Assembly: GCA_944322145.1 (NCBI GenBank)
Contig: CALUNW010000003.1
Span: 186,001-250,000 of the forward strand
From: an uncultured Atopobiaceae bacterium
GTDB taxonomy: Bacteria; Actinomycetota; Coriobacteriia; Coriobacteriales; Atopobiaceae
DNA: 64,000 bases
Reading direction: 5' to 3'
Part shown: one piece after another, positions 2,881 to 60,182 of the stretch
Layout: each line of letters starts with the position of its first letter
Position numbering within the stretch: the first letter of the stretch is position 1
Position numbers and translations under genes: made by a program
Notes under the pieces: generated by a model
The model's database searches: none
Told to the model about the DNA's origin: nothing
The model's input: only the letters and a program-made list of their open reading frames with translations

Positions 2881-6399
<3,519 letters not shown>

Positions 6400-6404
6400 C
6401 GACT

Positions 6405-10832
<4,428 letters not shown>

Positions 10833-10931: not shown

Positions 10932-11061
10932 CGAACCTGCGTACGTCTGTACTTTGACGTTGAGTCCTGTCTATAGCTCCCGCGTTTCCGCAGGTAGACG
11001 GGATGGCTGTTCTGTCCACTTTGCCGAGTGCGCGATTAAAGTACAGACATACGCGGGTTCG
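10932..11061 (+). repeat. GCAGGTAGA-core inverted element A
   Basis: Arms of 24 bases (10932-10955 and 11038-11061; 22 of 24 positions complementary) contain TACGTCTGTACTTT and its inverse. The centre holds CGTTTCCGCAGGTAGA (core 10990-10998), then GGCTGTTCT. The core lies 34 bases from the left arm and 39 from the right. Element B (12510-12635) has matching arms and exactly the same distances in the opposite orientation. No gene is visible in the surrounding 10895-11318 gap, and the remainder (11062-11318) shows no further repeat. Confidence 0.8.
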
Positions 11062-27432: not shown

Positions 27433-27466
27433 GCTCTAAGCTCTAAGCGCTAACGCACGGTTTGGG

Positions 27467-27504
27467 CGCCCCGACCTTCCAAGGAGGTCGGGGCGTTCTT
27501 CTTT
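27467..27504 (+). terminator. Terminator after rpsJ
   Basis: CGCCCCGACC (27467-27476) pairs with GGTCGGGGCG (27486-27495) and is followed by TTCTTCTTT. It ends the rpsL-rpsJ operon and separates rpsJ from the rest of the S10 genes. Confidence 0.9.
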
Positions 27505-27641
27505 CTCGCCGCCACTTTGGCCCAGCGATGTTCCGTCAGGACGAGGTCTGGTGCCGCCTGGCGTTATGAGCGCGGGTGCGAGCAAGAGGACGACGAGGCA
27601 TGTGATAGGCTGCCGTTGGAAACTGAGTGAATGGGGCAGCC

Positions 27642-29168
27642 ATGAGACGTCCGACTAGGCCGAACGCCGCGTTTGTCCTTCTCGCGCTGTGCGCCCTTCT
27701 TGGCGCCGGGCTTGTTGTGGGGCTTGCGGGATGCAGCGGGCAGGCCGTGTCGGACGCGTCGTCCAAGGAGGCTGCGGAGGTCCCCGATGAGGCCCCCGAG
27801 GTCGAGGGCCGCGCATCTGCCTATGTCGAGTTCGTCGATGACTACCTTTTCTGGGGAGAGGACGAGGAGCTCCGGGTGGCTTCGATCGCGCGTAACGGCG
27901 GGCTCGAGGAGCTTGAGGACGCCGGCGCCTTTGATGACGACGTCCGTCGCCTCGCTGCGCTCGACGGCGTTCTGTACGTTTCCACGGACGGCGGCATCTA
28001 CCGCATGGACGCCAGGGATGATGCGGAGGATGCGGAGCTTCTTGTTGCGCAGGGCGGCATTGAGGACTTTTGGGTGACGTCCCAGGGGATCATCTATCTC
28101 GTGGAGGGCGATTTGTACGGTGCGCCCGTCGACGGCGGCGACGAAGAGGGGCTGATGAGCGGCGTCTGGGACTACGTCGTTGCCGATGGCTCGCTTGTCG
28201 TGCTCGGCGAGGACGGTGCCCTCTTGAGGTGCGGTCTCGACGGTGCCGAGGCGGTCATCGTAGAGGAGGCGCGCGATCGCTACGATGAGTCGCTGCTCCT
28301 CGCGGAGGGCGATGACGTGTATTTGGTCTCAGACAAGCTGCTGGTGCTGCGGGCAGGCGAGGACGCCCTCGAGGACGTGGGGCTCGAGCGGGAGATACGG
28401 GACACGGTCGACGTGGTCATCTACGATGGGGGCGTGCTCTACGAGGCATCCAACGAGAAGCCCTATCGTCATGTTTTTGACGCCGATGCAGCGGGGGATG
28501 AGGAGGTGGACCACTGCCTGTTCCGTGGCAAGCCCTACGGAAGGGTGCGTGACGGCCTCAACTACTACACCATTCTCGGGGATGAGATTCGGGTGACCGA
28601 CGTTCAGAGCCTTGAGTACGAGGACTTCGAGGCCGACGAGCTGCTTGATGGCGACGCTGAGAAGAGCGCGGGAGCCTCGTCGGGCTCCTCCTACGGCTCG
28701 GATGCGTCCACATCTCACGACGACTCTGATGGGGCGGGTTCGACCGCCGGTTATGACATTGCCTCGAACATCACGCTTCGCCTCACAGACGGCCTCGCGC
28801 TTCTCTCCACTGACCACTTTAACCTCTATATGCCTCGAAGCCAGGTCGAGGATGGTCTGTGGCACATCGAGCCCGTCGACTCCACCACCCTCGTCTTTAG
28901 CTACTCGAAGGCTCTGGAGGCGGGCTACGGCGGGAGGGTCTTCACGCTCGAGGCGTTCGACTGGGGGGACAATGCCTACGCGGACATCCCCGCCTCCTTC
29001 GTCGCGGGCCTGAGCGAGGACAAGAAGTACGTCGTCTACCTGGCGACCGACCTTCAGTACGATAGCGGCAGCTCCCTACAGCGTGAGCAGTACGCCGAGA
29101 TGCGGTCCTATGCGGAAAGTCTGGACATGAACTCCAGCGCCAATGGCGGCTCCTTCAATCCGATCTAG
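27642..29168 (+). CDS. Putative lipoprotein with a beta-propeller-like exterior domain
   Basis: A 508-residue protein of unknown function. An N-terminal signal (RRPTRPN then a hydrophobic run) ends in the lipobox LAGC, predicting a lipid-anchored surface protein. The body has repeated units ending in YVSTDGGIYRMD, YLVEGDLYGAPV and VVLGEDGALLRC, reminiscent of DUF5050/TolB-like propeller blades. It is very acidic, with a Ser/Asp-rich linker near residues 345-370 and a C-terminal domain of about 120 residues. ATG 27642 was preferred over GTG 27627 because GGGGC lies close upstream. Codon use is less biased than in the ribosomal genes, and it sits in an insertion that splits the S10 operon. Confidence 0.75.
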   Translation: MRRPTRPNAAFVLLALCALLGAGLVVGLAGCSGQAVSDASSKEAAEVPDEAPEVEGRASAYVEFVDDYLFWGEDEELRVASIARNGGLEELEDAGAFDDDVRRLAALDGVLYVSTDGGIYRMDARDDAEDAELLVAQGGIEDFWVTSQGIIYLVEGDLYGAPVDGGDEEGLMSGVWDYVVADGSLVVLGEDGALLRCGLDGAEAVIVEEARDRYDESLLLAEGDDVYLVSDKLLVLRAGEDALEDVGLEREIRDTVDVVIYDGGVLYEASNEKPYRHVFDADAAGDEEVDHCLFRGKPYGRVRDGLNYYTILGDEIRVTDVQSLEYEDFEADELLDGDAEKSAGASSGSSYGSDASTSHDDSDGAGSTAGYDIASNITLRLTDGLALLSTDHFNLYMPRSQVEDGLWHIEPVDSTTLVFSYSKALEAGYGGRVFTLEAFDWGDNAYADIPASFVAGLSEDKKYVVYLATDLQYDSGSSLQREQYAEMRSYAESLDMNSSANGGSFNPI

Positions 29169-29251
29169 AGATCCCCGTCGTCCAAAGAGACCGGCGTGCT
29201 TCGTCTGGGCGCGACGATTGTTTCACGGGTGGTGCCATGCCACAGCTTGCG

Positions 29252-29281
29252 TTGCATTGCGCTATTCCCGCACGCTAGTAT
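29252..29281 (+). promoter_or_regulatory. Candidate promoter of thrH
   Basis: TTGCAT (29252-29257), an 18-base spacer, and TAGTAT (29276-29281) precede the thrH start by 33 bases. GGCGAGAAGAACGG follows immediately. Confidence 0.4.
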
Positions 29282-29314
29282 GGCGAGAAGAACGGCGTCG
29301 TTGGAGGGTGTCTT

Positions 29315-29914
29315 ATGAACATCGTGTGCCTGGACCTTGAGGGCGTGCTGGTGCCGGAGATCTGGATCGCGTTCGCTGACGAGTCGGGCATCCCCGAGCT
29401 GCGCCGCACCACGCGCGACGAGCCGGACTACGACAAGCTCATGGCGTTTCGTTTGGGCGTCCTGCGCGAGCACGGCCTTGGCCTGCGCCAGATCCAGGAC
29501 GTCATCTCCCGCATCGACCCGCTGCCCGGGGCGCGCGCGTTTCTCGACGCGCTGCGCGAGCGCACGCAGGTCGTCATTCTCTCCGACACGTTCGAGGAGT
29601 TTGCGCGCCCCCTCATGGGCAAGCTCGGCTGGCCCACGCTGATGTGCAACTCGCTCGAGGTGGCGCCGTCCGGCGAGATCGTCCATCACGTCATGCGCTG
29701 CGAGAACTCCAAGCTCACGACCGTCCGCGCGCTCCAGTCCTGCGGCTATGAGACCATCGCTGCGGGCGACTCCTTCAACGACCTTGCCATGATCCGCGCG
29801 AGCAAGGCGGGCTTCCTCTTTAGGAGCACGGTAGCGATCCAGGAGGCCAACCCCGACCTTCCGGCGCTCGAGTCCTACGACGAGCTGCTCGCCGCCATCA
29901 CGGAGGCCCTCTAG
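29315..29914 (+). CDS. thrH: Phosphoserine phosphatase / homoserine phosphotransferase (ThrH-like)
   Basis: A 199-residue HAD-family enzyme with CLDLEGVLVPEIW (nucleophile D7), the LSDTF motif II region and GDSFNDLAMI motif III. These match ThrH, known in Pseudomonas to dephosphorylate phosphoserine and transfer phosphate to homoserine. Which activity dominates here is unknown. It lies 1 base before the phosphatase gene, so the pair is likely co-transcribed. Confidence 0.85.
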   Translation: MNIVCLDLEGVLVPEIWIAFADESGIPELRRTTRDEPDYDKLMAFRLGVLREHGLGLRQIQDVISRIDPLPGARAFLDALRERTQVVILSDTFEEFARPLMGKLGWPTLMCNSLEVAPSGEIVHHVMRCENSKLTTVRALQSCGYETIAAGDSFNDLAMIRASKAGFLFRSTVAIQEANPDLPALESYDELLAAITEAL

Positions 29915-29915
29915 C

Positions 29916-30521
29916 ATGCCGCGTCTCTACATCTTGCGGCACGGTCAGACCGAGTTCAACCTCCAGCACCGCGTGCAGGGCCACTGCGACTCCCCGCTCA
30001 CCGAGCTCGGCGTCGAGCAGGCGCACGCGGCCGGCGCGTGGCTCGCCGACCAGGGGGTGCGCTTTGAGAGGATCTTCTCGTCTCCGCTCGGGCGTGCGCT
30101 CGCCACAGCGGAGATTGTGCGCGAGGAGCTGGCGGCGGCCGGGCTGCCCGCGCCGGAAGTGGAGCCTGTCGACGGCTTGATCGAGCGGAGCTACGGCCCC
30201 TTCGAGGGCGGGCCGGCCTCCGATGTCCCCGCCGAGCTCTGGGATCCCGGCGAGGCGCTCGTGCCGTTTGGCGGGGAGGGCAGCGCCGCCCTGCGCGAGC
30301 GTGTCGTCGGGGCGCTGACGGACCTCATGCTCTCTTCGTGCGCGCAGACGGTGCTCGCGGTGAGCCACGGCTCGGCGACGCTGCAGTTCAAGCGCGCCTG
30401 GGAGCCGCTCGCGCGCTGCCCGCAGGACGTCCACCTCGGTAACTGCTGCGTGCTGGTCTACGAGTTCGATCCCGTGGCGCGCACGTTTGCGTGCGAGCAG
30501 ATCGTGAATCAGGACGTCTAG
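29916..30521 (+). CDS. Histidine phosphatase family protein (phosphoglycerate mutase-like)
   Basis: A 201-residue branch-1 histidine phosphatase. LYILRHGQTEFNLQHRVQGHCDSPLTELG contains the catalytic H9 and RHG motif. The second histidine is in VSHGSA. The protein is too short for the cofactor-dependent glycolytic mutase, so phosphatase activity (for example on a sugar phosphate or cobalamin-pathway phosphate) is more likely. It pairs with thrH. Confidence 0.85.
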   Translation: MPRLYILRHGQTEFNLQHRVQGHCDSPLTELGVEQAHAAGAWLADQGVRFERIFSSPLGRALATAEIVREELAAAGLPAPEVEPVDGLIERSYGPFEGGPASDVPAELWDPGEALVPFGGEGSAALRERVVGALTDLMLSSCAQTVLAVSHGSATLQFKRAWEPLARCPQDVHLGNCCVLVYEFDPVARTFACEQIVNQDV

Positions 30522-30552
30522 CGGCAACGCGTTCTTCTCGCCATGCTGCCGA

Positions 30553-30866
30553 GCTTAAGGATTGCCGCGCATTCCCGGAATCCTTGCCGCGCCGCTTAAA
30601 GATCGCCGCCCATTCGGCGTCCAGGCGGTTCGCCGCTTAAACATCGCCGCCCATTCGGCGTTCGGGCGGTTCGCCGCTTAAACATCGCCGCCCATCCAGA
30701 AAGAAGCGGCGCGCCCCCGGCGGATGCGGCGGATTCCTTAATCAGAAGGGCGCTCCATCCTCGGATGCGCCGCGATCCTTAAGCAGAAGGGCGCCGCATC
30801 CTCGGATAGGACGCGATCCTTAAGCGGAACAGCAGGGACCACCGTAACGCGCGGAACATCCTAAGC
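30553..30866. repeat. Eight-site inverted array with a 41-bp period
   Basis: The site GCTTAA(A/G)(C/G)AT begins at 30553, 30594, 30635 and 30676 on one strand. Its inverse (ATCCTTAAGC or close variants, TTAA at 30738, 30779, 30820 and a diverged copy at 30861) follows on the other. Every neighbouring pair is 41 bases apart, with an unpaired centre around 30700-30720. The outermost copies are the most diverged. 41 bases is close to four helical turns, so sites would face the same side of DNA. No gene is present in 30522-30936, and no spacer diversity suggests CRISPR. Confidence 0.8.
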
Positions 30867-30923
30867 AACCAAGAAGAACCTCGCGCCGCCAATGGATACG
30901 CCCGGCGGCGCGGAAAATGGAGC

Positions 30924-30936
30924 CCCAGCTCAGGGC
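30924..30936. repeat. Left 13-bp direct repeat flanking the IS30-type insertion
   Basis: CCCAGCTCAGGGC abuts the left end of the insertion sequence and recurs at 34003-34015, abutting the right end. It is most simply a target duplication. Most IS30 elements make 2-3 bp duplications, but a few relatives (such as IS1630) are known to make long ones. Confidence 0.7.
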
Positions 30937-31162
30937 GGTTGATTTCCGATCTCAGCCGAACACATTGAGCTGATGGCTCGCTCCCGCAGTTAACCGAACG
31001 CCCCCGCGGCCCCTCTCGGGCCCCGGGGGCGCCATTTTCCCAGTTGAAGGAATGGTGGAGATGTGTTTCGATGGGTCCGGTGGCCATGCCCCGCCCGCCG
31101 CCCGGCACCTCTTCCCAGACTCAGCCGGACGGTCGGTCCGTCTATTCCGTTTTTCTCCTAGG

Positions 31163-32455
31163 CTAGGCCAGCGGGGCATCGCCCCTCTCTGCGCGCGCCC
31201 TCTCGATGAGCCCCGGCGTCAGGTCGAGTTCCCCGATGGGCACGTCCCCCACGCCGTAGGCGTCCAGCAGCGCCGCCGCGTCCTCCCCGAGCATCGCCCT
31301 GAAGGCGCGCGCGGGCGTCGCGAAGCCGAGCGCGCCGCGGGGCTCGGAGTTCACGTGCGACATGGCCAGCGCCAGGTCGGCCGGGACGAGCCGGTCGAAC
31401 CTGATTCCGGCGCCCTTGGGCAGCAGCTTCCTGATCTCGACGTGGTTGCGCTCGCAGGCGCCCTTCTGGTCGCTGCGCCTGGGGTCGCAGTAGAACAGCC
31501 TCGTCTCGCCCGGCCCCTCGCCGAGCAGCGCCGCGATCGCCGCCTCGTCGGAGAACTCGGCGCCGTTGTCGGTGAGGACGGCGCGGAACACGCGGCGCGT
31601 CCCGTCGGCGCCGAGGATGGCCCGGACGCCCCCCAGGGCGTCCGCGACGCACCCGGCGGTCTTCTCCTCCAGCGGCAGCGCGAGCTGGAGCCTGCTGGGG
31701 CGGTGCAGCAGCGTGAGCAGGCAGGCGGAGTCCTCCCGGGCCCCCTCGACGGTGTCCATCTCCCAGGCCGCGGCGCACGCGTCCTCCCCGAGGGCGAGGA
31801 ACGCGGCATGCGACCTGCGGGCGGAGTGGCGGGTCGCCGCCCGGCCCGCGGCGCGCTTCCTCGGCCTGTAGCCGACCTTGCGCCTGAGCTCCATGTTGGT
31901 CATGCCGTCGTAGCCCGCCGAGACCCAGCGGTAGATGGTCGACGGCGACAGGTCCACCGGGCCGCCGTTGCGCGCCGCCATCTGCTCGGGCGACAGCCCC
32001 CGGCGCAGGCAGTCCCTTATCGCCTCCAGCCTGGCCGCCGCGGCGGGCTCGTCGGCGTCTATCCCGCGCCTGGACGAGACGAGGACCGAGTCGGCGCACA
32101 GCTGCGCGGCCCGGGCCTCGTAGAAGACGTGGGGGCGGCGCTTGCAGCCGATCGCGCGGTACCGGCCGCAGCCGTTGCAGCATCGCGGCCACGCCGCCAG
32201 GCGCGGGCAGGCCGCCGACAGGTCGGCGGAGGCGTCCACGCGCTCGCCGCGCCTGGCCTTCGGCGCCGTCACGAACCTGTGCGACGCCACCTCGGCGCTC
32301 ACCGTCGAGGGCGACCTGCCCAGCTCCCTCGCGATCTCCCTGCACGACGCCCTGCGCTCCAGCATCCTCTGGACCGTGTCCCGCTCGTGCCTCGTGAGCC
32401 TTCCGTAGGCCCTCGGGACCGCCCTTGCGGAGCCGCTTTTCTTCTTTCCGGACAT
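31163..32455 (-). CDS. IS30-family transposase (copy 1)
   Basis: A 430-residue transposase. An N-terminal helix-turn-helix (YGRLTRHERDTVQRMLERRA then REIARELGRSPSTVSAEV) binds the IS ends. The DDE catalytic residues are in WEMDTVEG, LTDNGAEFSD and KGACERNHVEIR. GGAGGACGGC places the start at 32455 (MSGKKKSG); an upstream ATG at 32515 lies in a palindrome and lacks a ribosome binding site. A CxxC pair (CCNGCGRYRAIGC) may bind zinc. It is identical to copy 2. Confidence 0.93.
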   Translation of the reverse strand: MSGKKKSGSARAVPRAYGRLTRHERDTVQRMLERRASCREIARELGRSPSTVSAEVASHRFVTAPKARRGERVDASADLSAACPRLAAWPRCCNGCGRYRAIGCKRRPHVFYEARAAQLCADSVLVSSRRGIDADEPAAAARLEAIRDCLRRGLSPEQMAARNGGPVDLSPSTIYRWVSAGYDGMTNMELRRKVGYRPRKRAAGRAATRHSARRSHAAFLALGEDACAAAWEMDTVEGAREDSACLLTLLHRPSRLQLALPLEEKTAGCVADALGGVRAILGADGTRRVFRAVLTDNGAEFSDEAAIAALLGEGPGETRLFYCDPRRSDQKGACERNHVEIRKLLPKGAGIRFDRLVPADLALAMSHVNSEPRGALGFATPARAFRAMLGEDAAALLDAYGVGDVPIGELDLTPGLIERARAERGDAPLA

Positions 32456-32508
32456 GCCGTCCTCCGATCTCCCGGGGCCGGCCGATCCGGCCCTCAGGGT
32501 ATCGGGTT

Positions 32509-32544
32509 CCCACATTCATCCGCACATGTACGGATGAATGTGGG
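32509..32544. promoter_or_regulatory. Perfect palindrome upstream of transposase copy 1
   Basis: CCCACATTCATCCG (32509-32522) and CGGATGAATGTGGG (32531-32544) are exact inverses around CACATGTA. The palindrome lies between the transposase start and the IS right end. It could be a repressor-type site for the transposase or a hairpin that blocks read-in from outside. An identical palindrome precedes copy 2 at 33938-33973. Confidence 0.6.
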
Positions 32545-32573
32545 AGGTGTTCGGATAAAGTTGATAATCAAGG

Positions 32574-34002
32574 TTCCGTTTTTCTCCTAGGCTAGGCCAG
32601 CGGGGCATCGCCCCTCTCTGCGCGCGCCCTCTCGATGAGCCCCGGCGTCAGGTCGAGTTCCCCGATGGGCACGTCCCCCACGCCGTAGGCGTCCAGCAGC
32701 GCCGCCGCGTCCTCCCCGAGCATCGCCCTGAAGGCGCGCGCGGGCGTCGCGAAGCCGAGCGCGCCGCGGGGCTCGGAGTTCACGTGCGACATGGCCAGCG
32801 CCAGGTCGGCCGGGACGAGCCGGTCGAACCTGATTCCGGCGCCCTTGGGCAGCAGCTTCCTGATCTCGACGTGGTTGCGCTCGCAGGCGCCCTTCTGGTC
32901 GCTGCGCCTGGGGTCGCAGTAGAACAGCCTCGTCTCGCCCGGCCCCTCGCCGAGCAGCGCCGCGATCGCCGCCTCGTCGGAGAACTCGGCGCCGTTGTCG
33001 GTGAGGACGGCGCGGAACACGCGGCGCGTCCCGTCGGCGCCGAGGATGGCCCGGACGCCCCCCAGGGCGTCCGCGACGCACCCGGCGGTCTTCTCCTCCA
33101 GCGGCAGCGCGAGCTGGAGCCTGCTGGGGCGGTGCAGCAGCGTGAGCAGGCAGGCGGAGTCCTCCCGGGCCCCCTCGACGGTGTCCATCTCCCAGGCCGC
33201 GGCGCACGCGTCCTCCCCGAGGGCGAGGAACGCGGCATGCGACCTGCGGGCGGAGTGGCGGGTCGCCGCCCGGCCCGCGGCGCGCTTCCTCGGCCTGTAG
33301 CCGACCTTGCGCCTGAGCTCCATGTTGGTCATGCCGTCGTAGCCCGCCGAGACCCAGCGGTAGATGGTCGACGGCGACAGGTCCACCGGGCCGCCGTTGC
33401 GCGCCGCCATCTGCTCGGGCGACAGCCCCCGGCGCAGGCAGTCCCTTATCGCCTCCAGCCTGGCCGCCGCGGCGGGCTCGTCGGCGTCTATCCCGCGCCT
33501 GGACGAGACGAGGACCGAGTCGGCGCACAGCTGCGCGGCCCGGGCCTCGTAGAAGACGTGGGGGCGGCGCTTGCAGCCGATCGCGCGGTACCGGCCGCAG
33601 CCGTTGCAGCATCGCGGCCACGCCGCCAGGCGCGGGCAGGCCGCCGACAGGTCGGCGGAGGCGTCCACGCGCTCGCCGCGCCTGGCCTTCGGCGCCGTCA
33701 CGAACCTGTGCGACGCCACCTCGGCGCTCACCGTCGAGGGCGACCTGCCCAGCTCCCTCGCGATCTCCCTGCACGACGCCCTGCGCTCCAGCATCCTCTG
33801 GACCGTGTCCCGCTCGTGCCTCGTGAGCCTTCCGTAGGCCCTCGGGACCGCCCTTGCGGAGCCGCTTTTCTTCTTTCCGGACATGCCGTCCTCCGATCTC
33901 CCGGGGCCGGCCGATCCGGCCCTCAGGGTATCGGGTTCCCACATTCATCCGCACATGTACGGATGAATGTGGGAGGTGTTCGGATAAAGTTGATAATCAA
34001 GG
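32574..34002 (-). mobile_element. IS30-family insertion sequence, truncated tandem copy
   Basis: A 1429-bp direct duplication of 31145-32573 placed head to tail. It contains the whole transposase gene and the right end but lacks the left 208 bases, including the left terminal inverted repeat. The junction (AATCAAGG then TTCCGTTTTT) places a right end against internal sequence. Its own right end at 34002 abuts the second 13-bp direct repeat. Confidence 0.8.
32592..33884 (-). CDS. IS30-family transposase (copy 2)
   Basis: Identical in length and translated sequence to the gene at 31163-32455, with the same helix-turn-helix and DDE residues and the same start context (GGAGGACGGC before position 33884). 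It could supply transposase in trans, but its own element lacks a left end. The rplC promoter lies just beyond the element. Confidence 0.93.
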   Translation of the reverse strand: MSGKKKSGSARAVPRAYGRLTRHERDTVQRMLERRASCREIARELGRSPSTVSAEVASHRFVTAPKARRGERVDASADLSAACPRLAAWPRCCNGCGRYRAIGCKRRPHVFYEARAAQLCADSVLVSSRRGIDADEPAAAARLEAIRDCLRRGLSPEQMAARNGGPVDLSPSTIYRWVSAGYDGMTNMELRRKVGYRPRKRAAGRAATRHSARRSHAAFLALGEDACAAAWEMDTVEGAREDSACLLTLLHRPSRLQLALPLEEKTAGCVADALGGVRAILGADGTRRVFRAVLTDNGAEFSDEAAIAALLGEGPGETRLFYCDPRRSDQKGACERNHVEIRKLLPKGAGIRFDRLVPADLALAMSHVNSEPRGALGFATPARAFRAMLGEDAAALLDAYGVGDVPIGELDLTPGLIERARAERGDAPLA

Positions 34003-34015
34003 CCCAGCTCAGGGC
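34003..34015. repeat. Right 13-bp direct repeat flanking the IS30-type insertion
   Basis: CCCAGCTCAGGGC, an exact copy of 30924-30936, immediately follows the IS right end. The pair defines the insertion boundaries and shows that the tandem structure behaves as one inserted block. Confidence 0.7.
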
Positions 34016-34037
34016 CCACAAAACTTTTGCGGAGACA

Positions 34038-34066
34038 TTGTGAATTCGCCCGTGCGCGTGTAGACT
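34038..34066 (+). promoter_or_regulatory. Promoter of the rplC-led S10/spc gene series
   Basis: TTGTGA (34038-34043) and TAGACT (34061-34066) are separated by 17 bases. It lies 36 bases from the IS end and about 130 bases before rplC. This leader (34073-34194) may carry autoregulatory structure (GGGGCAACGGGTGCCCC can pair), but I recognise no known motif. Confidence 0.65.
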
Positions 34067-34194
34067 AGACAGGCTGCGCTAATGGGGACAGCTATGTCGA
34101 GCCCCAAAGGAGCAGCAGATACAGGACGTGGTCCGCTGGGGAGGGGCAACGGGTGCCCCACAGGTCCCATGACCACCGAGGGTTAGGAAAGAGC

Positions 34195-60041: not shown

Positions 60042-60182
60042 GAGGGTATGTACACCCCGCCTTTAGGGTATGTACACCCGCCGGTTTTGGGTTGATTGCA
60101 AACGCGCAGGTAGATGAGCTGCCGAGAAGAACGAGCTGGCCGGGCAGTGTACATACCCTCAGGGGGCGGTGTACATACCCTC
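60042..60182 (+). repeat. GCAGGTAGA-core inverted element D
   Basis: Each arm carries two copies of GGGTATGTACACC 22 bases apart (left starting at 60044 and 60066; right inverted, GTGTACATACCC at 60147 and 60169). The core GCAGGTAGA is at 60106-60114, 27 bases from the left arm and 32 from the right, followed by CTGCCGAGAAGAACG. Element E (62456-62595) has the same arms, period and orientation. D lies between convergent genes. Confidence 0.85.

Follow-up and report, generated by a model that had tools for sequence, protein, structure and literature searches.

Dispersed, helically phased site arrays and a probable nuclease-like partner protein in Olsenella-like gut bacteria

The array of GCTTAA-type sites found in the ribosomal S10 region of this GC-rich genome belongs to a family of mirror-image arrays, phased by helical turns, that lie between the genes of Olsenella-like gut bacteria. 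In our judgement these arrays are probably dispersed sets of phased sites served by a dedicated nuclease-like protein, the copy described here being one that survived the loss of the gene. The sequence analysed (hereafter the window) is a stretch of 64,000 nucleotides, G000:C3:186001-250000; G000 denotes the window's genome and G006 its sister genome, and the relatives compared are Olsenella/Atopobiaceae records of the same genus.

An earlier note on the window had described four direct and four inverted sites on a strict 41-bp period. Direct reading of the sequence bears this out: the forward GCTTAA are found at 30553, 30594, 30635 and 30676, the inverted TTAA at 30738, 30779 and 30820, followed by a diverged CTAAGC copy (CTAA at 30861), and the period is exact at every step. 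The unit is longer than that note saw, with ca. 24 conserved bp (GCTTAAnnATyGCsgCCCATCCGG) and 17 variable bp (Table 1). The array is no chance product: GCTTAANNATNNNNNCCCATCC with at most 3 mismatches gives 7 matches in the window, all in the array, where 0.42 are expected, and 7 matches were reached in 0 of 100 shuffles. The exact core occurs in its own 2.4-Mb genome at the window locus and one other only; an Rfam search of the window returned no match. The array sits between the histidine phosphatase gene and two identical tandem IS30-like copies (31145-32573 and 32574-34002), a perfect tandem of 1429-bp units, 100% identical, that fills part of the space between the array and rplC. At 27433-34153, genes for a putative lipoprotein, a HAD-like protein and the phosphatase split rpsJ from rplC, which are normally adjacent in the S10 operon, and the phosphatase-rplC neighbourhood is found again in relatives. 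There the sequence 3' of the phosphatase gene (L031-L050) carries other palindromic repeats: GTGCGG arrays, GTGCAAAGGGGACAGTCACTTTCGCAC pairs, and TGACAAAGGTGACAGGG pairs. As different repeat families thus occupy the same position in different species, one site is reused by many of them.

Table 1. Positions in the window of the array units, the nuclease-like paralogue and associated repeats.
Feature	Position	Strand	Remark
Mirror repeat pair upstream of the window paralogue	10942..11048		TACGTCTGTACTTT ... GTACAGAC
Paralogue of the nuclease-like family, 386 aa	11319..12479	+	own repeats on both sides
Mirror repeat pair downstream of the window paralogue	12518..12624		matches the upstream pair
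Histidine phosphatase (His_Phos_1) gene	29916..30521	+	window array just 3' of it
Forward unit 1, 24-bp conserved part	30553..30576	+	PWM score 19.7
Forward unit 2	30594..30617	+	PWM score 32.5
Forward unit 3	30635..30658	+	PWM score 29.5
Forward unit 4	30676..30699	+	PWM score 29.4
Array centre	30700..30719		20 bp between arms; 67 bp from outer G to outer G
Inverted unit 1	30720..30743	-	PWM score 20.7
Inverted unit 2	30761..30784	-	PWM score 31.5
Inverted unit 3	30802..30825	-	PWM score 33.0
Inverted unit 4, degenerate	30843..30866	-	GCTTAGGATGTTCCGCGCGTTACG; under PWM threshold
Dispersed array of the second family	60044..60180		GGGTATGTACAC; 22-bp steps, forward then inverted

The sister genome has the window array at the corresponding position (99% over 415 bp), together with dozens of dispersed intergenic arrays of the same plan. 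The genome-wide count proposed in the earlier note, taken as GCTTAA pairs 41 bp apart, amounts to 6 in G000 and 179 in G006, with 15 in G001, 12 in G019, and 8 in G027; the backwards control yields at most 1 per genome (0 in G000, 1 in G006). The note had named dispersed copies with variable periods as a sign of ordinary slippage: the copies are dispersed, but their period is invariant. With a weight matrix trained on G006 and matrices for two other dialects of the unit, 61 arrays with 496 units were called. In these, 354 of the 376 same-strand steps measure 41 bp (the rest 40, 42, 52, 81-82, and 153), and 56 arrays show the forward-then-inverted layout. The centre distances are 57, 67-68, 77-78, 87-89, 98-99 and 109 bp, plus 151 and 172, and are quantised at ca. 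10.5 bp (vector strength R=0.96, reached by 0 of 20,000 uniform simulations); the set of distinct centre values alone gives the same result. The 17-bp spacers are near-random in sequence and carry almost no information. Together, the 41-bp steps and the quantised centres point to proteins that would touch each other along one face of the duplex, centre included. The earlier note's idea of proteins assembled cooperatively along one face of the DNA thereby gains strong support, from a period that is fixed across diverged species and from the spacing of the centres. Its other suggestions fared worse. A partition site or replication origin is expected once or a few times per genome, close to a change of skew; with dozens of dispersed arrays in the sister genome and GC skew, which the note had wished to see checked, unchanged at the locus, neither is supported, and nor is a silencer. 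The nested hairpin is taken up below.

Across species the motif of 24-25 bp combines a constant GCTTA box with a dialect box, and the period persists. The outer box, (Y)GCTTA(A/G)nnAT, is common to the species and the inner box is specific to each: RTCCGG in G006, G000 and G018; RTGGCA in G019 and G008; RTTGGAG in G001, G027 and G011; and CATCGCA in G010. CCATCCGG is an example of the species-variable box that stands beside the conserved YGCTTAAnnAT, and the contrast between dialects is illustrated by TTATGGCA in G019 versus CATCCGG in G006. The gap between mfd and glgX holds arrays in both of these genomes, in different dialects, so whole sets of sites have changed together. Apart from the nuclease-like gene described next, the genes beside arrays (ABC transporters, mfd, glgX and others) show no recurrence across loci except for common families.

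In G006 a gene of 362 aa (C2:9853-10938) is enclosed by two arrays; in G001 the gene at 4425-5534 lies between the arrays C7:3555-4359 and 5865-6498, and in G019 and G027 the cognate gene adjoins an array. The homologues of the G006 protein (60% in G019, 52% in G001, 53% in G027) each have arrays of their own dialect beside them. The likely partner of the arrays is this protein of ca. 360 aa with a C-terminal Vsr-like nuclease domain, a predicted binder of the sites. It belongs to a large paralogous set, with 5-15 paralogues detected per genome. When the upstream and downstream 600-bp flanks of 44 family members were aligned (cut-off score >=40), matching repeats on both sides were found for 24/44 family genes and 1/203 other genes (Fisher 3e-20); with a common GAGAAG motif masked the numbers are still 22/44 and 1/203. 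Each flanked paralogue has its own repeat, which in the cases tested is also scattered through the genome, the clearest periods being near whole helical turns (41, 42, 30, and 22 bp), and about one quarter of the members have no clear flanking repeats. G010 and G018 hold a few arrays, without a close cognate gene; G022, G007 and others hold a 50-57% homologue and GCTTAA arrays are absent, the homologues of G022 and G007 being flanked by repeats of other sequence. Of 120 genomes from the order Coriobacteriales, 92 have family homologues, representing 48 of 66 genera. In other genera, flanking repeats are shared in 5 of 16 tested genes versus 0.4% of cross-gene controls; the gene-repeat arrangement thus extends beyond the genus, yet is less general there.

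No Pfam family covers the whole protein, and its N-terminal ca. 180 aa are unmatched. The C-terminal region matches MTES_1575 in 15 of 38 members (Pfam scan; best 4e-6, below the curated cutoff) and DUF559 in 6 of 38, with only L324 above the cutoff in individual Pfam scans. The family profile gives a weak match in the PDB (E 0.031) to 3r3p, the intron endonuclease I-Bth0305I. The residues SPxE, D, H and D are nearly invariant: among the aligned members E181 is conserved in 98%, D225 in 100%, H246 in 98%, and D255 in 88%. Both the sequence match and the E/D/H/D pattern are those of the Vsr-like/EDxHD nuclease superfamily. An AlphaFold2 model from a 2-sequence alignment reached a pLDDT of 42, too low for the fold to be read from it.

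The window's genome offers a view of what becomes of the arrays. In G000 the nearest homologue of the 41-bp cognate reaches no more than 40%, so a close one seems to be missing, with the uncertainty that an assembly ca. 95% complete brings. Six array loci of G006 can be compared in G000: gpm (the window locus) and L128/L124 keep arrays, and of the remaining four, two are degenerate relics and two are without an array. Most G000 arrays are relics. The matrix score is 28.0 for the window array and 28.9 in G006, and 21 for the two other G000 arrays; between the two genomes the window array differs at 5/367 positions and the adjacent genes at 57/1709 (p=0.04). The simplest reading is that the 41-bp system has been lost from G000 and that the window array survives; it could be retained for another reason.

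A second repeat family shows the same link between gene and repeat. The G000 gene L313 (G000:C5:144259-145206) has AGGGTATGTACAC on its flanks, and the window array with 22-bp steps belongs to the family of this repeat. The four genomes whose protein is 81-100% identical hold 109, 78, 66, and 56 exact copies of it; in 27 other genomes (protein <=73% identical) the median is 0 and the maximum 19, kinship being ignored. In this one family tested, and with that proviso, repeat abundance correlates with the cognate gene.

Other repeats were met along the way. Counted on both strands, almost every genome of the genus has ca. 120-530 exact copies of the 13-mer GSCGAGAAGAACS, with 319 in G000 and only 27 in G026; other genera mostly have 0-13 (G038 42), and the backwards control gives 0-3. 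The 13-mer is enriched intergenically and often found in or close to the middle or the border of various mirror arrays, and its window positions include 12552, 23782, 23892, 29285, 30531 (reverse complement), and 60124. In G006 an IS481-family element lies in array units with CTTAAG on both sides (L113:5810-6880 and several contig ends). It was considered as an autonomous partner of the arrays and rejected, being an insertion into the CTTAAG of a unit and having different ends. As several G006 contigs end at arrays, with ends of IS481-family or other insertion sequences, the arrays are insertion hot spots. A genome-wide scan for triple GCTTAA sets a lower bound to the taxonomic range of the matches; those listed outside the Atopobiaceae (Mammaliicoccus sciuri, Tannerella, Bacillus, others) resemble minisatellites or chance matches selected by the pattern, and the 24+17 plan is absent on inspection. 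Mammaliicoccus sciuri NCTC 12103 (L152, L164, L166, L168, others) has 41-bp tandem arrays at many dispersed places, built from a well-conserved unit that starts with GCTTAA and contains AATAAAGCCAAGAGAT, apparently unrelated to the phased arrays. The viral scan matched a single contig, also unrelated.

In the explanation we propose, the locus is a dispersed intergenic copy of an array of bipartite ca. 24-bp sites, spaced at ca. four helical turns along the duplex, with several units facing one way and several the other, so that both arms point to a short centre. A dedicated protein of ca. 360 aa with a C-terminal Vsr/EDxHD-type nuclease-like domain would, most likely, bind these sites cooperatively. 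Binding would both regulate the protein's own gene and maintain or spread the arrays, either through DNA nicking or cleavage followed by repair or through bridging of arrays. The window copy would be a survivor in a lineage that lost the gene. Binding, cleavage and mobility of the arrays are predictions; the loci compared showed neither a clean empty site nor a duplicated target.

Among the alternatives, the one that deserves most attention, unlikely as we consider it, is that a host architectural or regulatory protein binds the arrays (in the nucleoid, in insulation, or in termination at gene 3' ends) and that the nuclease-like genes merely lie in repeat-rich gaps. Every array is intergenic, convergent gene pairs are favoured (14/42 versus 32/172 intergenic gaps) and divergent ones under-used (4/42 versus 34/172), helical phasing would suit any cooperative DNA binder, and the window array has changed slightly less than the genes beside it. 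Such a protein would not explain why repeats match their own paralogue specifically, why dialect and copy number go with the gene, or why a close sister species has lost or decayed arrays with no apparent harm. Less probable again is that the arrays are the ends of non-autonomous miniature or foldback elements moved by a conventional transposase. Foldback elements do have arms made of subrepeats, and the arrays are dispersed, intergenic, mirror-symmetric and present or absent between close species; but there are no conserved termini beyond the unit, the outer flanks share no common terminus, and no target duplication is seen. Moreover, units inside one genome are strongly diverged, arrays are ancestral at several orthologous loci (the gpm locus in G000/G006; L124/L128; L127/L112), the orthologous G000 sites are relics or unrelated sequence, and the IS481-family element inside arrays only inserted into a unit.

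The hairpin that the earlier note had offered, in the form of a functional RNA or single-stranded DNA structure such as a long terminator or a REP-like palindrome, we regard as very improbable. The strand does give a better fold than shuffled sequence (z -3.2 as DNA, -4.6 as RNA), as expected of any inverted arrangement, but the spacers are not complementary across the arms (0.366 paired versus 0.365 unpaired), and variable positions are no more alike in equidistant units (0.553) than in same-arm units (0.585). With spacers that are nearly free of information and do not pair between the arms, a functional hairpin is unlikely, and the helical quantisation of the centre would be meaningless for one. 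We give hardly any credence to ordinary tandem-repeat slippage with an accidental mirror layout. Orthologous arrays do vary in unit number by 41-bp steps, so slippage or recombination adds and removes units; this process alone would neither keep the 41-bp period across diverged dialects in spite of the near-random spacers nor yield the forward-then-inverted plan in nearly all arrays. Phased arrays with a dedicated nuclease-like protein remain our preferred explanation.

We lean, with less assurance, towards a wider view: that the Coriobacteriales harbour a large new class of Vsr/EDxHD-type proteins, selfish or domesticated, each of which would recognise its own phased array, with several systems per genome and dialects that turn over with the protein. 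As far as the literature searched shows, the repeat-plus-gene systems known from bacteria involve HUH transposases; here an unrelated nuclease-type family appears to have arrived at a like arrangement through phased arrays of double-stranded DNA, with several systems side by side in a genome that differ in recognition sequence. This would offer a function for a widespread, almost unannotated protein family, account for a large part of the repeats between genes in these gut bacteria, and supply natural pairs of protein and DNA site for work on the evolution of DNA recognition.

In the openly accessible literature searched, no published description of such a gene-array system was found, and the nuclease-like gene with its phased arrays looks like a previously undescribed gene-plus-dispersed-repeat system. 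It resembles several known ones in part. EDxHD homing endonucleases share the order E, D, H, D, and one of them, I-Bth0305I, is the weak match of the nuclease region mentioned above; that enzyme binds a very long target (ca. 60 bp) as a dimer (PMC3943268). Unlike it, the present family is not encoded by introns or inteins and shows no sign of homing, and comes with several paralogues per genome and large multi-site arrays. The C-terminal domain of many members matches the Pfam models of DUF559 and of MTES_1575, a Vsr-type REase (PMC3710099), whereas the N-terminal ca. 180 aa match neither and a single individually scanned member passes the cutoff (for DUF559); no association of either family with repeats was found in the literature searched. 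BIMEs, known binding sites of several proteins, likewise lie between genes and consist of repeats at regular spacing, in both orientations (PMC2817692), but the strict head-to-tail then inverted layout, the fixed helical period and the non-palindromic unit set our arrays apart. The closest parallel in organisation is the REPtron, a TnpA_REP (RAYT) gene with its cognate REP repeats (PMC8266576, PMC2817692): in both, a gene is flanked by its own repeats, these are dispersed genome-wide in extragenic space, their abundance tends to follow the gene, and composite arrangements (BIMEs) occur. The components differ. The protein is of Vsr-like nuclease type and not an HUH/Y1 transposase (no Y1_Tnp in Pfam scans of 38 members), with 5-15 detectable paralogues in each genome examined; and in place of a palindrome of 20-40 nt with a GTAG/CGTC tag that forms single-stranded hairpins, the unit is asymmetric (GCTTAAnnAT...RTCCGG), a bipartite duplex site phased by helical turns. 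As neither the protein nor the DNA site fits the definition of a REPtron, the system would work like one without being one.
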